The notes under the pieces are model-generated. The model saw only the letters and a list, made by a program, of their open reading frames with translations, did not search any database and was not told the DNA's origin. From Pedobacter ginsengisoli (GTDB taxonomy: Bacteria > Bacteroidota > Bacteroidia > Sphingobacteriales > Sphingobacteriaceae), in contig NZ_JASSYX010000003.1 of assembly GCF_030244015.1 (NCBI RefSeq), positions 558,001 through 622,000 on the forward strand: a DNA stretch of 64,000 nt, written 5' to 3'. The first letter of the stretch is position 1. Each line of letters begins with the position of its first letter. Made by a program: the position numbers and the translations under genes. Of this stretch, positions 23,167 through 45,165 are shown in pieces.

Positions 23167-24582
23167 TTAATTATTCCACCCGGGATTTTGAGACATATTG
23201 CTCATTTCTATGACATCAATTGGAAGTGGGAATACATATCTGAAGCTATTTGGTTCAAGTGTATATATTTTCCCTTGAACCGTTCGGGATAAACTTACAG
23301 CAAATCGCGGATCTTTATTCAATCTACGCATATCACTCCACCTTAGTCCTCTTAGCAACAATTCTTTCTTCCGCTCTTGTAAAACGATCTCCAATGCTTG
23401 ACTTTGATTTGTTGCACTTTGATCCACGTATGTACTTATTCCTCCTACTTTCTTCCAACGATTTTTCAACAATGTGTTTACATCTGCCATGGCTTCATTG
23501 AAACTTCCTGCACGTGCCCTACTCTCAGCTCTAATCAAATACATTTCATCATTTGCCAATCCATTAAAGCACTGTCTTGAGCCTGTATAACTACCTTTAA
23601 AGGAGTATTGCCCAGCAGAAAGCGAGAAAAAGACAGGAATTCTCAAATCGTTGGATTGATAAAGACTAATTAATTGAGGGTCAATACGCAACCCAGTTCC
23701 ATTTTCGCCATAATTGACCAGGGAAGAATGGAATATAACTTCAGTGTTTAACTGCTTTACAGGAAAAGGATCAGATATTATAAGTGTATTATAATCTAAA
23801 AGAACACTATTAATTTCCAATGCCCCATTAGCACAAATACCCGCATTTGTATAATCTTCCATACTTAAATAAACTCTTGCTAATAAAGCAAATGCCCCTG
23901 GCTTAGAGGCTCGAGTTTTATAACTAGGTGTAATAGGTAAGAGCTCTTGGGCCAATTTTAAGTCATTTATGACCAATTCATAAGTTTCTTTTACTGTTGA
24001 TCTAACAGATAAAATATTTATATCACTTGTTAAACGTAATGGAATGCAAAGGCTATTATTTTCGCTGTTTAATTGATAAGGTGGAGCATATAATTGGGCT
24101 AATTCATAAAACGAACGGGCCCTTTGAAATAAAGCTTGGCCTTTGATATTATTCCACAAGGATTGATTTAAATTATTTAATGTTATTTTTTCTAATGTTT
24201 CTAAGATAAGATTACAAGTAAAAATTCTTGTATAGGATCCCAGATTCGGTTGACTAATCCAATCAGAAACATTTCTGTAAGGCAACTCGTTCGACCAAGT
24301 ATATGCATTTCGTGAGTTATCGGCCATCGTTAAAATTCTGGATTCAATTACAAAATGGCCGTCTGAAGCAATCTCCCCAAGACCAGGACTATCTCCATTA
24401 AAGAGAGTATTGTAATCTAATAGTGCCTGACAATCCTGTAAGGAAGCAGGTATTGTTGTCTTAATATCTGGCTTTTTATCAAGCCATTCCTTTGTACATG
24501 AAGTCAGATTCAAGATCACAATACAGCAGAACAAAAAACAGAATTGAAAAATATTCTTATAATATTTATATCTAGTTTTCAT
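23167..24582 (-). CDS. SusD/RagB-family nutrient-binding lipoprotein
   Basis: Outer-membrane lipoprotein partner of SusC. The N-terminus ends in the lipobox LTSC (Cys29), followed by KEWLDKKPD. TPR-like helices (FQRARSFYELAQLYAPPY) and the C-terminal region (LRGLRWSDMRRLNKDPRF, then YVFPLPIDVIEMSNMSQNPG) are typical RagB/SusD. It begins 10 bases after the SusC stop. The substrate cannot be deduced; TlpA neighbours hint at a peptide or metal rather than a glycan. Confidence 0.9.
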   Translation of the reverse strand: MKTRYKYYKNIFQFCFLFCCIVILNLTSCTKEWLDKKPDIKTTIPASLQDCQALLDYNTLFNGDSPGLGEIASDGHFVIESRILTMADNSRNAYTWSNELPYRNVSDWISQPNLGSYTRIFTCNLILETLEKITLNNLNQSLWNNIKGQALFQRARSFYELAQLYAPPYQLNSENNSLCIPLRLTSDINILSVRSTVKETYELVINDLKLAQELLPITPSYKTRASKPGAFALLARVYLSMEDYTNAGICANGALEINSVLLDYNTLIISDPFPVKQLNTEVIFHSSLVNYGENGTGLRIDPQLISLYQSNDLRIPVFFSLSAGQYSFKGSYTGSRQCFNGLANDEMYLIRAESRARAGSFNEAMADVNTLLKNRWKKVGGISTYVDQSATNQSQALEIVLQERKKELLLRGLRWSDMRRLNKDPRFAVSLSRTVQGKIYTLEPNSFRYVFPLPIDVIEMSNMSQNPGWNN

Positions 24583-24592
24583 CAGAATTCAA

Positions 24593-27500
24593 TTAAAAGT
24601 TAACATTTAAACCAATTGATAGTGAACGTGAGGAGGGGATTACTGAATCTCCGTACTCTGGATCTATACCTAGGTCATTCGCACTCCACAAAATTCCAAG
24701 GTTATTTGCATAAATAAATAATGAGACATTTTGAATAGGTAGCCTTCCGAGCTTCTTCTTTGAAAAGGTATAATCCAATCGTATATCTTGTAAGCGAATG
24801 TGATCTCCCTTTTCGACTAAAATATTTGATTGGGAGTATATAAAATCTCTACCTCCCGCGACAGAAGCGGACATAGAAGGAACATTAGTTACTAATTCGT
24901 CTCCTGGTTTCTTCCAACGTTTAGAAAAATCACTATGTCCTGAAAGCCCTTCTATTCCTCCATATTGAATTGAGTTCCTTTTAAAGAAATAATCAAATTT
25001 GTAAAGTATGTTAAATGACAAAGATAAATTCCGATAGGTAAGTGTATTTCTTAAAGAGCCAAAATATCTGGGAACTGCAGTACCATTATAAACCAAATCT
25101 TCTGGTTTAGCGTTAGTATTTACAAGATTAAATGAAGCTATAGTATCACTCAAATAAGCTCTTGGATTTCCATTCTTAGGATCTAATCCAGCCCACCTAT
25201 AACTCCATATCGAATATAAAGGCTTTCCTATATAAGGTTGGCCTGTAACGAAACTACTAGCCGTTTGCGATTTGGATTCATAGGAGACTACCCGGTCAGT
25301 ATTAAAACTCAGCAAAAAGTTGCTTCTCCATGAAACCGTTCCGGTTGTATTGAGTGTGTTAAGTACCACATCGATCCCATAACCTTTTATTGAGGCCCTA
25401 TTTCCTGTTAATTCTGAAAATCCTGTCGTTGGGTCTAATTGGATAGGACCAATTAAATCAAATCCTTTTTTATTATAATACTCTATTGACCCGCCAATTC
25501 TGCTGTTTGACGTTGCAAAATCAACTGCTATGTTAATCATTCTTACACGTTCCCAACGTAATTCAGGATTTCCAGAGCTTGTAACCCTTGCATAAGTATT
25601 TTGCGAAATAAAATTAGTACTACCGCTACTATAAAGTATCGTAGGATAGGCCGTTACAGAATTAAATAAGTTGGCGTTATATCCATAGGTAGCTCGAATT
25701 TTCAAGACAGATAACAAATTTGTTTTGTAGAAATTCTCTTTCGTTACGTCCCATAAACCCCCAACAGACCATAAAGGTGTTATTCTTTGATTTGCTTTAA
25801 TGCCAAAGAAATTTGAACCATCCATTCGCCCGCTGACTGAAAGAGTGTAGCGGTTTTTATACGTATAAGCAGCATTTCCAAAATAGCTGATATACCTGTT
25901 TATTGTTCCTCCAATACTACTAGCACTAGGAATGGCACTCATGTTTCCTTCAGGACGTACAGGATACCGGTTCAAAAAATCAATATTACTAGAAAAAACT
26001 CCATTTATAGGATCATATCCGTATTTTCTGTCACTAAAGCTAGTTGAAGTGACTTCACGTCCATCAACGCCTAAGATTGCATCTAGTGCATGATTAACAC
26101 CTAAAACTTTATTGTAATTTAGCTGTCCCCTTACATTATTTGATACTAATTCGACGATGCTTTGTTGCAAAATATCTCCATTTGGAATTAGGTAATTAAT
26201 AGTCCCGTTGGATAAACGCTGCATATATTGGTTAACCAAGTTCCGCACAAAGTAGCTTTCTTTTGAATAATTATTTATTGTACTAGAAGTGCTTTTCTGA
26301 TATTGATATTTTAACTCAGCATGCAATCCGGGGAAAAACTGATACTTTCCACCAAAGCCGAAGCGATTATCTACTTGTTTAGTTTGGTTGTCGTTGAATG
26401 TCAGTTCATCCAAAGGGCGGTATCTCCATTCTAATAAAGCTGGATAACTAGCTGTATCGATATAAGCTTTTCTTAATGGTCCGAATGGTATTGATAGAGA
26501 ATTACCATTTTCATCTGTCAGCTTCGAGTACGGTTCGCCAAAGACAGCCCCAATGCCATTATTAATATTCTTGTTTTGAACATAGTTGATGTATCCGTTT
26601 AATTCTAGGTCTTTCGTCAATTTGTAACTGTTTTCATACCTAATAGTTAATCGACTAAGCTTATCACCTACATTTGTGCTTCTGTTTCTATCGTATCCAA
26701 TAGATCCATAATAATTAAAATTATTACTCCCCCCAGATAAATTTAAGGCGTACTGTTGGTTGACACTTTCCTGTCGAAGATATTTGTCTATATCGTCTCT
26801 TACATCAATTTTCTCGAGTTCGGCTAATTTCAATTCAAGTTGATCTTTGCTTATTTTTCCTTTCCTCGCTGCAAGTAATAACTCAATACCGGAACTAACA
26901 CTTGGAAAATATTTAATTGATGGATAAGAATCATCGTAAATATTATATATACTATCGGCAAATTTTATCCTGTTTATTTCGACAGCTTCAGCAGACGAAA
27001 TCCTTTTAACATAAAATAGGTTAGGTTTATTTCCAATTGTAAAATTACTATTAAATGAAGCTCTAGATTTCTGTCCATACTTACCCTTTTTTGTTGTAAT
27101 AACAATAACACCATTACCTGATCGTGCTCCCCATATAGAAGCTGCAGCCGCATCCTTCAAAATTGTAACTGACTCGATGTCATTAGGATTGATATTATTA
27201 ATTACATTACTCAATACAATTGATTCGTCATAAGGAAATCCGTCTATGACAACTAACGGATTTGAGTTGGCTTGGATCGTGCTATTACCACGAATAGATA
27301 TATTACTCCTATTATTTTGTCCAGCACCACTTTTTGGATTCGGCTCAAAATTTAAACCACTTGAAACACCAATAATTCTGTCTAATATATTTGTTGAAAC
27401 TGAACGGTTGATTAGGTTATTATCTATTTGAACAAATGACCCAGTCGCTCGTTCCTTATTCAGGGTTTGATATCCTGTAGAATAGGTTACCTTCACCTCC

Positions 27501-28153
27501 TCCAATTCACCAGTTGCCACATTTAGCTTAATTTCCAAAGGCATGACCGCATCTTTCAAAGGCAGTTCCAGTGTCCTAAATCCAACATAACTCACCAACA
27601 ACACCGCATCATCTGCTACATTCTTAATCTCAAATTCGCCCTCAGCATTAGTATTCGTAACAACACTTTTCCCTTTTACCCGGATACTTGCGTTTGGGAG
27701 TGGTTTCCCATCCTGGTCTACCACACGGCCTTTAACATTAAGATCTCTCACCATGTTCGAGATGACGGTGGAGAGTTTGTCCAGTAGAGAAGGGGCTTTT
27801 TTAGAGATAACAATGGTATTGTCGCTCAGTTCATAGGATAAAGACTGGTTCTCCAGCAGCTTATCCAGAACCTCTTTTAAGGGAGCATTAGATAGTTTAA
27901 TATTTACCTTTTTCGCCTGATCAAAAATATCATCCGAAAAAAGGATGTTCATTTTGCTCTGGGCTTTGATCTTATTTAAAACTTGTTCAAGGGGCGCGTT
28001 ATTTTCAGACAAAGTAATCCTTTGTGCTAGCGTACTAGCACTAACCTGCATTAAACAGGTAAATAATATGACTACGATTAATTTCATAATCAGCAGTATT
28101 TTTGGCGGCAGCCACATGCGCGGCATACCCAGGTTAGAAATGTATATTTTCAT
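24593..28153 (-). CDS. SusC/RagA TonB-dependent transporter with STN domain
   Basis: A 1186-residue outer-membrane transporter. After the signal sequence it has an STN signalling domain (about 45-125, ITLSENNAPLEQVLNKIKAQ and NAPLKEVLDKLLENQSLSYE). A carboxypeptidase-regulatory-like domain follows (VKGRVVDQDGKPLPNASIRV), then the plug (GYQTLNKERATGSF, VVIDGFPYDES, ILKDAAAASIWGARSGNGVI) and a 22-strand barrel ending in a terminal Phe. The STN domain fits control by the FecR anti-sigma and ECF sigma genes upstream. Confidence 0.93.
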   Translation of the reverse strand: MKIYISNLGMPRMWLPPKILLIMKLIVVILFTCLMQVSASTLAQRITLSENNAPLEQVLNKIKAQSKMNILFSDDIFDQAKKVNIKLSNAPLKEVLDKLLENQSLSYELSDNTIVISKKAPSLLDKLSTVISNMVRDLNVKGRVVDQDGKPLPNASIRVKGKSVVTNTNAEGEFEIKNVADDAVLLVSYVGFRTLELPLKDAVMPLEIKLNVATGELEEVKVTYSTGYQTLNKERATGSFVQIDNNLINRSVSTNILDRIIGVSSGLNFEPNPKSGAGQNNRSNISIRGNSTIQANSNPLVVIDGFPYDESIVLSNVINNINPNDIESVTILKDAAAASIWGARSGNGVIVITTKKGKYGQKSRASFNSNFTIGNKPNLFYVKRISSAEAVEINRIKFADSIYNIYDDSYPSIKYFPSVSSGIELLLAARKGKISKDQLELKLAELEKIDVRDDIDKYLRQESVNQQYALNLSGGSNNFNYYGSIGYDRNRSTNVGDKLSRLTIRYENSYKLTKDLELNGYINYVQNKNINNGIGAVFGEPYSKLTDENGNSLSIPFGPLRKAYIDTASYPALLEWRYRPLDELTFNDNQTKQVDNRFGFGGKYQFFPGLHAELKYQYQKSTSSTINNYSKESYFVRNLVNQYMQRLSNGTINYLIPNGDILQQSIVELVSNNVRGQLNYNKVLGVNHALDAILGVDGREVTSTSFSDRKYGYDPINGVFSSNIDFLNRYPVRPEGNMSAIPSASSIGGTINRYISYFGNAAYTYKNRYTLSVSGRMDGSNFFGIKANQRITPLWSVGGLWDVTKENFYKTNLLSVLKIRATYGYNANLFNSVTAYPTILYSSGSTNFISQNTYARVTSSGNPELRWERVRMINIAVDFATSNSRIGGSIEYYNKKGFDLIGPIQLDPTTGFSELTGNRASIKGYGIDVVLNTLNTTGTVSWRSNFLLSFNTDRVVSYESKSQTASSFVTGQPYIGKPLYSIWSYRWAGLDPKNGNPRAYLSDTIASFNLVNTNAKPEDLVYNGTAVPRYFGSLRNTLTYRNLSLSFNILYKFDYFFKRNSIQYGGIEGLSGHSDFSKRWKKPGDELVTNVPSMSASVAGGRDFIYSQSNILVEKGDHIRLQDIRLDYTFSKKKLGRLPIQNVSLFIYANNLGILWSANDLGIDPEYGDSVIPSSRSLSIGLNVNF

Positions 28154-28368: not shown

Positions 28369-29625
28369 TTAATTAACGGAACGATTCGGGTTAGTTATAA
28401 TAATGCTGTTGCCTACGATATCGAAGTGTATTTTCTTGGTTTTTTCAAGCAAACGGAGTAGTGTGGATGCCTTATCAAATCTGGAAACCGTTCCCGAGAA
28501 AGTAACAGGCTTCATATCGCCCTTATAAATTACTTTTACGTTATACCAACGTTCTACTCTTTTCATGATCTGTTGCAATGGTTCCTTCCGGAACACAAAT
28601 TCTCCGTTTTTCCAGTCGATGGCATCAGCGGCGTTTATTTCTTTTACGGTTATAGGTTGGTTTACGGTAACAAGGGCTTGCTGGTTGGGTTTGAGGGTCA
28701 CGGCATTGCCGTCATCTCGAACCACAGGGAGAGATCCCTTGTTTGTGCTATTCAAGAGATCTCTCGTCGATGCGCTTCCCTCGAGATGACGAACACGCAC
28801 AGATCCCTCTACCAAAGTTGTTTTAATCCCTGTATCATCGCTATACGCATTAATATTAAAATGTGTACCCAATACCGTCACCTCTTGTTTATCCGTTTGT
28901 ACGATAAAAGGCTTTGCTTTGTTTTTAGACACTTCAAAATACCCTTCTCCTTCTAACAATACTTTGCGTTGTTTTCCAGAAAACTGAGAGGGAAAACTAA
29001 TTTTTGAGTCGGCGTTCAACCAGACCTTCGTTCCGTCAGGAAGAGTAAACTGGTACGTCTGGCCTTTAGCCGTGCTAGCGGTGATCTGTTGTTTACCCTC
29101 CCCGTCATTGCGAGGTATCGAAGCAATCTCATCATGCAGTGGAGATTGCTTCGTCGTTCCTCCTCGCAATGACGGGTAATAGGCTAATTTGCCACCTCCT
29201 ACTACCACCCCGCTCTTCGCATCGCTCAACGCTATCACCTTACCATTTGCCAGTGTTATCGTCGCACCATTCTTGCCTGGAGCTATATCTTGAGGTCCTG
29301 AAACAAGTTCAGGATGACGAGGTGTGTTAGCATGACGGTTAGCATTAAAGAAATAAACGCCGAAAACAACCGCTGCTACCGCAGCGGCAGCGACCGCGAT
29401 CCTCGGCCATAATTTTATTACAGGTTTTTCTATTGACTGTATGTTACCATATATTTGATTCCAGGATTTTTGCTCCAGAACCACAGGGTCCAGTTGGATC
29501 TGCGCCCAGGTTTCTTCATCTTTTTGAAAAGTGTTAAAGGATTCGTTATACAAAGCTATCTCTGCATCTGTTGCTGATCCATCAACAATCTTTCCAACTA
29601 ATAGGATATATTCTTCTCTGGTCAT
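28369..29625 (-). CDS. FecR-type anti-sigma factor carrying three translated repeats
   Basis: Inner-membrane anti-sigma factor. It has an N-terminal cytoplasmic sigma-binding region (MTREEYILLVGKIVDGSATD), one membrane segment (about 74-93) and a periplasmic FecR domain (DGTKVWLNADSKISFPSQFS ... EGEGYFEVSKNKAKPF ... GTHFNINAYSDD). The C-terminal DUF4974 secretin-like part is EPLQQIMKRVERWYNVKVIY. Three dispersed palindromic repeats are read in frame: residues 103-110, 151-176 and 278-306. All three fall in variable loops, so the domain folds should survive. The signal would pass from SusC-STN through FecR to the ECF sigma. Confidence 0.92.
   Translation of the reverse strand: MTREEYILLVGKIVDGSATDAEIALYNESFNTFQKDEETWAQIQLDPVVLEQKSWNQIYGNIQSIEKPVIKLWPRIAVAAAAVAAVVFGVYFFNANRHANTPRHPELVSGPQDIAPGKNGATITLANGKVIALSDAKSGVVVGGGKLAYYPSLRGGTTKQSPLHDEIASIPRNDGEGKQQITASTAKGQTYQFTLPDGTKVWLNADSKISFPSQFSGKQRKVLLEGEGYFEVSKNKAKPFIVQTDKQEVTVLGTHFNINAYSDDTGIKTTLVEGSVRVRHLEGSASTRDLLNSTNKGSLPVVRDDGNAVTLKPNQQALVTVNQPITVKEINAADAIDWKNGEFVFRKEPLQQIMKRVERWYNVKVIYKGDMKPVTFSGTVSRFDKASTLLRLLEKTKKIHFDIVGNSIIITNPNRSVN
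28710..28791. repeat. Imperfect palindromic repeat inside fecR (R3)
   Basis: Outer arms CGTCATCTCGA / TCGAGATGACG and inner arms related to GAGAGATC / GATCTCTC give a long imperfect hairpin. On the minus strand it is translated as STRDLLNSTNKGSLPVVRDD within FecR. The form resembles dispersed GTCATCTCGA repeats common in Sphingobacteriaceae genomes. Confidence 0.7.
29101..29176. repeat. Palindromic repeat inside fecR (R2)
   Basis: Left arm CCCGTCATTGCGAGG plus CGAAGCAATCTC, right arm GAGATTGCTTCG plus CCTCGCAATGACGGG, 11-base loop. Translated in frame as SLRGGTTKQSPLHDEIASIP then RNDG. A second, intergenic copy of the same family lies at about 45029-45110. Confidence 0.8.
29291..29320. repeat. 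Short palindromic repeat inside fecR (R1)
   Basis: TCCTGAA / TTCAGGA stem with a 5-base loop followed by GATGACG. On the minus strand it reads RHPELVSG, the familiar translation of the CATCCTGAACTTG repeat found in many bacterial genomes. Confidence 0.7.
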
Positions 29626-29784
29626 TTATTGGGTCGTATATAGGTAAGTAACGCAAGCCCCTACCCATCCCCTAGTTCAGATCAAAATATTTTTATTTTA
29701 TTTGTGATTTACATCTTTTGATGGCGGGGTTTCACATCGTTTAATGGCGGGCTTCTATCTTATTGTCTTTTCAGAAAAACGAAA

Positions 29785-29860
29785 TATAGATCAAATAGAA
29801 TGAAAATATAGCTCAACTTTTAAACTTATTGAGCTATATTTTCATTCTATTTGATCTATA
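29785..29860. repeat. Perfect 32-bp inverted repeat
   Basis: Two 32-base arms (29785-29816 and 29829-29860; arms begin TATAGATCAAATAG and end CTATTTGATCTATA) are exact complements around a 12-base loop. The A+T-rich hairpin lies between fecR and the sigma gene, beside a Fic-like relic. It has no T tract and is far longer than a normal terminator. Confidence 0.85.
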
Positions 29861-29869
29861 ACCAATATT

Positions 29870-30131
29870 ATGAAAGAAGATATTTCGACATTAATCATAG
29901 ATTACCTTAAAAGTTATCCGGCAGCATCTTCCTCCACTATATAAACGGACAGCCAGAATTATCAGTAATTCAATACTTATTGCACATCAATATTGCCCTA
30001 TATCATTTCGTACGGTAGATTCCGTCTACTATAAAAAAGCGATGCTGATTTTTTACGAGCAAAATAACATAGACGCCTTTAAACAGATTTTTATCAACCA
30101 ATTTGAATTTGCTGTTAAAACATACTTTTAA
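29870..30131 (+). pseudogene. Degenerate plus-strand gene with a Fic-like C-terminus
   Basis: An opening frame MKEDISTLIIDYLKSYPAAS is followed by frame breaks, and the 3' part reads YKKAMLIFYEQNNIDAFKQI then FINQFEFAVKTYF before TAA. The ending resembles the C-terminus of Fic/DOC proteins. The middle shifts frame at least twice, so this is a relic. It occupies the space between fecR and its sigma gene, on the opposite strand. Confidence 0.45.
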
Positions 30132-30198
30132 TGCCAAGTGGGCGACCGCCATTAAACAATGTAAATTCCCGCCATCAAAAGATGTTACTTACATTATT

Positions 30199-45028: not shown

Positions 45029-45110
45029 TCGTCATTGCGAGGAACTCTTCAGTGACGAAGCAATCTCATTTGGTTGGACACATTGAGATTGCTTCTTAAC
45101 CTCATAACGA
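45029..45110. repeat. Intergenic copy of the CATTGCGAGG palindromic repeat
   Basis: CGTCATTGCGAGGAA plus GACGAAGCAATCTCA on the left faces TGAGATTGCTTC and a decayed CGACG end on the right. It belongs to the same family as the repeat translated within fecR (29101-29176) and interrupts a YhcG relic. Confidence 0.7.
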
Positions 45111-45165
45111 CGACCGATCCAACATCTCTTCAAATAACAATACTGTTAGCTGCAATAATTAACTT

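Follow-up and report, generated by a model that had tools for sequence, protein, structure and literature searches.

The closest described counterparts of the repeats reported here are the CGTC-tagged REPs of Di Nocera, De Gregorio and Rocco (2013; PMC3733652). These are palindromic units with a tag at one end, CGTC or in its place TGTC or CCTC, which occur mostly between genes and as head-to-head dimers, have no dedicated transposase, and are in some copies translated within genes. The intragenic copies described in that paper lie in many unrelated proteins, genes for repair and DNA synthesis being remarked on, and the same paper places the Rickettsia elements RPE-4 and RPE-6 among the CGTC-tagged repeats. 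RPE-4, RPE-6 and RPE-7 are translated in frame, frequently contain ATGAC and have copies in solvent-exposed regions (PMC3767692). According to the same paper on the R. japonica genome, different RPE groups occur at the same loci of orthologues, in scattered housekeeping genes and between species, and both a hotspot and a common origin were proposed for different RPEs at one locus. REPINs and the GTAG-tagged REPs mobilised by RAYTs likewise consist of inverted pairs of short palindromes located mostly between genes. As for the host protein of the repeats described below, FecR-type proteins transmit their signal through stepwise proteolysis, in the periplasm and within the membrane, and cleave themselves at a Gly-Thr site (PMC9249621).

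Three repeats read in frame in one fecR gene

The window, i.e. the whole 64,000-nucleotide stretch of Pedobacter ginsengisoli DNA analysed here, carries a fecR-type anti-sigma gene, which sits between the genes for an ECF-type sigma factor and a TonB-dependent receptor. Membership of the gene product in the FecR anti-sigma family is indicated by (i) matches to PF04773 and PF16344 above cut-off, (ii) a TM helix and (iii) the adjacent sigma factor and TonB receptor. The protein comprises a cytoplasmic N part, a TM helix predicted at about residues 73-98, and the periplasmic FecR and FecR_C domains. The features of the window are as follows.

23167..24582, minus strand: gene downstream of the receptor, which we take from the look of its sequence to encode a SusD-like lipoprotein
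24593..28153, minus strand: partner TonB-dependent receptor, 1186 aa, with STN, CarbopepD_reg_2 and Plug
27741..27767, minus strand: single C unit in the STN-to-CarbopepD linker of the receptor, read TVISNMVRDL
28369..29625, minus strand: fecR-type anti-sigma gene, 418 aa, intact, with FecR (PF04773) and FecR_C (PF16344)
28710..28791, minus strand: site S3, head-to-head dimer of family C, 82 nt, read RHLEGSASTRDLLNSTNKGSLPVVRDD, in a turn that follows the FecR domain
29103..29174, minus strand: site S2, head-to-head dimer of family B, 72 nt, read SLRGGTTKQSPLHDEIASIPRND, before the FecR domain
29294..29319, minus strand: site S1, single A unit, CGTCATCCTGAACTTGTTTCAGGACC, read RHPELVSGP, immediately following the TM helix
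30199..30768, minus strand: ECF-type sigma factor, in a common locus with fecR
45030..45112, no strand assigned: intergenic B dimer, a comparison copy

A first-pass annotation of this DNA had proposed that fecR contains three different palindromic repeats translated in frame and adding about 60 residues. The coordinates, the readings and the genome-wide repeat counts bear this out, as the A unit, the B dimer and the C dimer are all in frame and together supply about 60 residues. The word 'different' holds for the families, of which there are indeed three, but not for the tag (CGTCAT...ATGACG), which is common to all: CGTCAT opens each of the three elements, and ATGACG closes the B and C dimers. 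The A unit at S1 is built as CGTC followed by ATCCTGAA/CTTGT/TTCAGGAc.

The gap between the sigma factor gene and fecR contains a further element at 29703-30193. Its terminal inverted repeats are 48 nt long and imperfect (85%), a perfect inverted repeat of 32 bp lies inside at 29785-29860, and the reading frames within it are short and broken. Its appearance is that of a small mobile element that has decayed.

Two-sided patterns recur across the genome at 48 sites for B, 27 for C and 9 for A, and the reversed-pattern controls gave 0 matches for each; A, B and C are thus repeats and not chance resemblances. With sites clustered at 120 nt, the FecR genes hold 8 of the 32 B elements and 4 of the 20 C elements, where 0.1 or fewer would be expected by length (12 FecR genes make up 14.8 kb, or 0.31% of the genome); since paralogues share elements, these counts are not independent, and binomial values are only a guide. 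In this comparison of genic with intergenic copies, which the first-pass annotation had named as a check, the remainder of the elements lie mostly outside coding ORFs, genic and intergenic positions having been classed by hexamer-model scoring of the ORFs around the sites. Outside FecR genes, two receptors and one STN gene, no B or C element lies in an ORF above the coding-score cut-off, the borderline case being C3:46725 (ORF score 0.09, cut-off 0.12). Lone 10-nt tags in five unrelated ORFs look like chance. In most B and C elements the tags form plus/minus pairs within 120 nt, and the units at S1 and in the receptor are single.

The CGTC tag, the predominance of head-to-head dimers and the multi-copy, mainly intergenic occurrence agree with CGTC-tagged REPs. 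Family A also has their stem of 8-9 bp starting with AT around a loop of 4-5 nt (7 of 8 pairs, judged by eye from the sequence). Families B (ATTGC...GCAAT) and C (ATCTC...GAGAT) have a 5-bp outer stem and a longer, variable middle; because this outer stem is shorter than the 8-9 bp of CGTC-1 to -4 (PMC3733652), we describe B and C as CGTC-tagged, REP-like repeats and do not assign them to these families. The B units in the FecR genes of this genome measure 25, 30 or 34 nt, and the 24-nt unit, present in 30 of 38 cases elsewhere, is found in none of 10 there, which argues against recent copying from the present intergenic set.

A profile search of the genome for the Y1_Tnp family gave no match at E 1e-3, and with no transposase of this family found, how the repeats insert can only be guessed. 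In 19 additional Pedobacter genomes, Y1_Tnp was absent from all 9 with FecR inserts and present in all 10 of a REP-rich comparison set; this split (absence in 10 searched insert genomes, our own included) is probably phylogenetic. Three of the eight Y1 loci fetched carry a tag, each a lone one, and we do not read their product as a REP-mobilising enzyme. The RAYT route was rejected on these grounds, as was membership in REPIN/RAYT systems, for the tag is CGTC rather than GTAG and the genome lacks a Y1_Tnp gene. An Rfam search on a long palindrome returned only matches to microRNA families below the gathering score.

Two further observations concern the repeats themselves. A units in opposite orientation and about 400 nt apart occur with equal spacing at G000:C1:1487515-1487924 and G000:C3:65016-65425, upstream of two different fecR paralogues (L123 and L129), and possibly form a MITE-like element. 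A 30-nt stretch of B unit identical to that of fecR is present on the cyanobacterial plasmids NC_019728.1 and NZ_CP011383.1 (Calothrix) and AP018309.1 (Aulosira), and the whole B dimer is found at 85% on cyanobacterial plasmids as well; the B repeat therefore occurs across phyla.

Distribution and turnover of the inserts among FecR genes

The first-pass annotation had treated fecR as a one-gene case, a view that did not survive: inserts of like kind are present in most close paralogues and in other species, and a fourth unit lies in the neighbouring receptor gene. We counted 22 full FecR_C genes in the genome, besides weaker STN matches in receptors. Allowing 1 mismatch in its 11 nt, the tag was detected in 10 of the 22. 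Its carriers are 10 of the 11 that share the motif GATITL, and none of the other 11 is tagged; the eleventh GATITL gene, L125, has a different palindrome at S1. The GATITL group was set after the inserts had been seen, and the tag scan took in all 22 genes, the detailed alignment and the tree only 12. One of these paralogues, L129 (G000:C3:63470-64862), has a further repetitive insert, SLQEPVAKSLRAPVAKSLREPVANSFRERR, within its FecR domain.

We aligned the 12 FecRs with 33 near matches from 12 other genomes, chosen by similarity (L042 was counted as part of G032). In the 45 genes, 113 tags fall in S1-S3 (12,375 nt) versus 5 in the remainder (42,645 nt), and 20 first-order resamplings of whole genes gave 1-6 tags in total per replicate. 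S1 is tagged in 25 genes, S2 in 23 and S3 in 23, and 33 of the 45 are tagged at any site; these counts are not independent, as paralogues have inserts in common by descent or conversion. At least one tagged FecR was found in 10 of the 13 genomes, the three untagged ones being represented by one gene each. A wider scan of 141 genes found the exact motif in 32, two of them (L039, L040) with the motif away from S1-S3, and 8 of the 96 scanned FecRs outside the 45 have the tag within 1 mismatch.

The number of repeats in a genome does not by itself produce such genes. In ten REP-rich Pedobacter genomes, with 81-231 B sites each, only 1 of 30 FecRs is tagged, at S2. Plain REP load as the cause is accordingly not supported: REP abundance is insufficient, and the FecR group or the lineage matters, gene group and genome being confounded in this comparison, in which the 30 control FecRs are less similar to the present one.

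Besides FecR genes, the inserts affect TonB receptors. Of the 11 receptors of this genome that were read, 4 have a tagged STN linker (C, C, E, and A-like with a mismatch; the count leaves out one further STN match); of 17 receptors from other genomes, none has. The four tags are all read as VI(S/L)N, a hydrophobic frame, at a place where other receptors have, for example, ARFQAIDV. Apart from those in FecR genes, the two-sided copies found within genes are one C unit apiece in two TonB receptors and an N-terminal dimer in an STN gene.

For L189, a gene whose N part is STN-like, the C dimer at G000:C4:399780 either separates MKKLIYN from the signal peptide or sits immediately upstream of the true start. 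Exclusivity to FecR was rejected, given the STN-gene dimer in our own genome and the sites of genome G085, of which 30 of 54 were classified: 16 in FecR genes, 2 in paralogues of glycoside hydrolase family 2 and 12 in no coding ORF. The two glycoside hydrolase genes (L248 and L272), about 9 kb from FecR genes, have CGTC repeats in frame, read KQEIASSRTPRND and KREIASVPRND.

The families at a given site turn over. When the insert columns are kept out of the maximum-likelihood tree, the state of S1 changes at least 23 times over the 45 rows, the states having been set by eye and including types H, I and A2 outside the six tag families. Starred sister genes differ in their S1 family: A in the present gene (FEC0) and H in L119, A2 in L122 and C in L204, D in L012 and reversed B in L194. 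The swap between the present gene and L119 is clean, with CATCCTGAACTTGTTTCAGG replaced by CCCCGAAATGAATTCGGGG, two unrelated palindromes flanked by at least 33 identical nt on the left and 15 on the right.

Identity between paralogues is mosaic, and in 4 of the 6 pairs compared it peaks at an insert, which insert depending on the pair. FEC0 and L123 are 97-100% identical over S2, 87-93% beside S2 and 27-47% in the N part; L119 and L123 peak at S1 (97%), L119 and L122 at S2 (93-100%), and L122 and L129 at S2 (100%). As to the other two, S3 is exact in L121 and L126, yet identity is 87-97% over most of the S2-S3 stretch and S3 forms no separate peak, and the longest exact run of L012 and L194 lies outside the inserts. 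The pattern appears partly reticulate, as local gene conversion would give. Identity at 4-fold silent sites between paralogues is 0.31-0.51 and is mildly higher between S1 and S2 (0.51 versus 0.31-0.43), as it also is between species (0.58). The silent sites thus give only a weak signal of long conversion tracts.

All 6 FecR B dimers of the genome have a length that is a multiple of three. A general rule of this kind was discarded because only 1 of 5 C-type dimers, measured tag to tag, conforms, which implies that the element boundaries are not fixed at the tags. For 25 intergenic dimers, each read in three frames per orientation, 16 of the 150 combinations would be open and frame-keeping.

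These data bear on the question whether each site received one ancient insertion, inherited across the FecR group and diverged since. S1-S3 are common to several species, A units recurring at S1 in G002, G118, G032 and our own genome, and the R. japonica authors favour a common origin for RPE-4/-6/-7 (PMC3767692). Nevertheless, we consider a single ancient event per site unlikely: many tags are exact against a silent-site identity of 0.31-0.51, even if the scan itself favours well-kept tags; families, orientations (A+ versus B- at S1) and frames (C at S2) differ between close genes; and the A palindrome faces an unrelated one between identical flanks. As for the absence of the segments from relatives, proposed at first pass as a check, sites without them do exist in other FecRs, but we found no exactly empty site in a syntenic orthologue and judged absence on paralogues and more distant FecRs.

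Insert peptides and the origin of the inserts

The inserts had also been claimed to lie in loops of the periplasmic part, and the AlphaFold2 model of FecR (59 sequences, mean pLDDT 81.8) agrees, with three low-confidence stretches at the sites. The pLDDT is below 50 at residues 102-109 (S1) and at 284-298 and 300-303 (S3), and the block means of S2 (residues 151-180) are 54, 54 and 66; the FecR and FecR_C domains reach 92-97, and the one other stretch below 50 is 64-73, before the TM helix. The insert peptides are thus modelled as loops, and such repeat-derived surface loops may matter in FecR. The periplasmic fold resembles solved structures (TM-score by target length 0.90 to 4m0n and 0.87 to 6ovk), and S3 spans 29 residues in this FecR against 5 in the homologue 4m0n.

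The repeats are not read at random. B+ units in FecRs are read SLRG in 15 of 15 cases with all three frames open, and A+ units RHPE in 17 of 17 with two frames open, whereas all three frames of C+ are used (at S2, C occurs in frames 0, 1 and 2); shared ancestry of the inserts weakens these counts. The frame bias in FecR and receptor linkers suggests that selection screens the insert peptide. S1 and S2 lie between the TM helix and G253-T254, a pair invariant in the FecR alignment, and S3 lies after it; from this placement, an effect of the inserts on FecR processing is possible.

What is observed, then, is that the fecR segments are CGTC-tagged, REP-like repeats, read in frame at fixed sites in low-confidence loops, drawn from several families in several species, and associated in some paralogues with local mosaic identity. 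We lean, with moderate confidence, towards recurrent insertion of REPs in tolerant FecR loops combined with repeat-centred gene conversion, filtered for reading frame. REPs would insert by some route, and in-frame landings in tolerant loops would survive. A REP in one paralogue could then provide shared repeat sequence, and perhaps palindrome-induced breaks, as a centre for gene conversion or further insertion, and either process would swap and spread units among paralogues. Selection would keep the readings that suit the site, i.e. hydrophilic ones in the FecR loops and VI(S/L)N in the receptor linker. In themselves, the peptides are probably flexible spacers with little effect on signalling.

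It is attractive to speculate one step further, albeit tentatively, that REPs are exchangeable linker cassettes, palindrome insertion and repeat-centred conversion supplying linker variation which selection uses to tune or insulate the parallel sigma pathways of the FecR group and its TonB-receptor partners. An outright adaptive diversification, in which REP loops would tune or insulate parallel sigma/FecR/TonB-receptor pathways and shuffling would be favoured as it varies linker length and charge where proteolysis or contact matters, seems to us quite doubtful. The inserts do sit at signalling linkers of both partners, in frames suited to the site, and are found in one gene group only of a many-paralogue genome; stepwise proteolysis and Gly-Thr self-cleavage in FecR-type signalling (PMC9249621), together with the invariant G253-T254, fit as well. 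However, loops of low model confidence vary freely, as neutral spacers would, and the same genome has FecRs free of REPs.

Alternatively, hairpins could act as RNA or DNA elements (in mRNA stability, translation pausing or recombination), the peptide being a by-product. Head-to-head dimers could fold in this way, and a role in transcripts has been proposed for REPs elsewhere (PMC3733652), but this is highly improbable here, as the half-units of S1 and of the receptor linker stand alone, with no partner for the large hairpin, and the fixed reading frames point to selection seeing the peptide. Low-complexity or misassembled sequence resembling repeats has next to no chance of being the answer: a loose 11-mer does give 43 reversed-pattern control matches against 141 and lone 10-mers do occur in five unrelated ORFs, but the controls refute it, with 0 matches to the two-sided patterns in this genome and 1 against 54 in G085, and open frames with paired tags recur in many genes of several genomes.

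Comparison with known systems

Our searches of open-licence papers found none on REPs and FecR, RHPELVSG or CGTC-REPs (main texts); for FecR with gene conversion, only the FecR review PMC9249621; and, in the broader REP literature, no title on REPs in FecR. The main text of PMC3733652 mentions neither Pedobacter nor sigma, and the text of a 2025 REP survey (PMC12306157), as far as available to us, neither Pedobacter nor 'intragenic'. Intragenic CGTC REPs (PMC3733652) and different RPE groups at one Rickettsia locus (PMC3767692) are already known. As far as these searches go, what is new is that the repeats are concentrated in one signalling family and at three fixed sites, that families are swapped between paralogues, that identity at the repeats is mosaic, and that the partner receptor is involved.

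So far, reports of translated REPs have mostly concerned copies scattered over unrelated genes. One FecR family in a free-living genus, with the same three sites and turnover of families, amounts to many natural replicates, in which it becomes testable how CGTC-tagged repeats without a known transposase move and whether the peptides they encode are filler that is tolerated or variation that can be used. In several Pedobacter species, repeat DNA keeps rewriting identical parts of one protein family. There is also a warning for annotation: peptides like RHPELVSG or SLRGGTTKQS in FecR loops are repeat DNA and not conserved protein motifs.

The present protein shares family, fold and the conserved Gly-Thr with the cell-surface signalling proteins FecR, PupR and FoxR (PMC9249621; PDB 4m0n, 6ovk), for which, unlike here, the review text describes no repeat-derived loops. 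REPINs and RAYT-mobilised REPs resemble our repeats in their inverted pairs of short, mostly intergenic palindromes, but differ in the GTAG tag and in their enzyme, our genome having CGTC and no Y1_Tnp gene. The likeness to CGTC-tagged REPs (PMC3733652) extends from the tag, the palindromic unit, the dimers and the mostly intergenic location to the reading of some copies within genes, and the search for a transposase, made here for Y1_Tnp, found none; in contrast to the many unrelated proteins described there, most genic copies found here are held by one paralogous signalling family, at three sites and with turnover of families. The parallel with Rickettsia RPEs drawn at first pass is apt and perhaps closer than 'parallel', as RPE-4 and RPE-6 have been placed among the CGTC-tagged repeats, a likeness taken from Di Nocera et al. 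(PMC3733652). In-frame translated palindromes with frequent ATGAC are common to both; the Rickettsia copies lie in solvent-exposed regions of proteins (PMC3767692), those here in low-confidence stretches of a model. Unlike in Rickettsia, the exchange is seen among paralogues within one genome, with a swap between exact flanks, mosaic identity at the repeats and a partner receptor that is affected as well.
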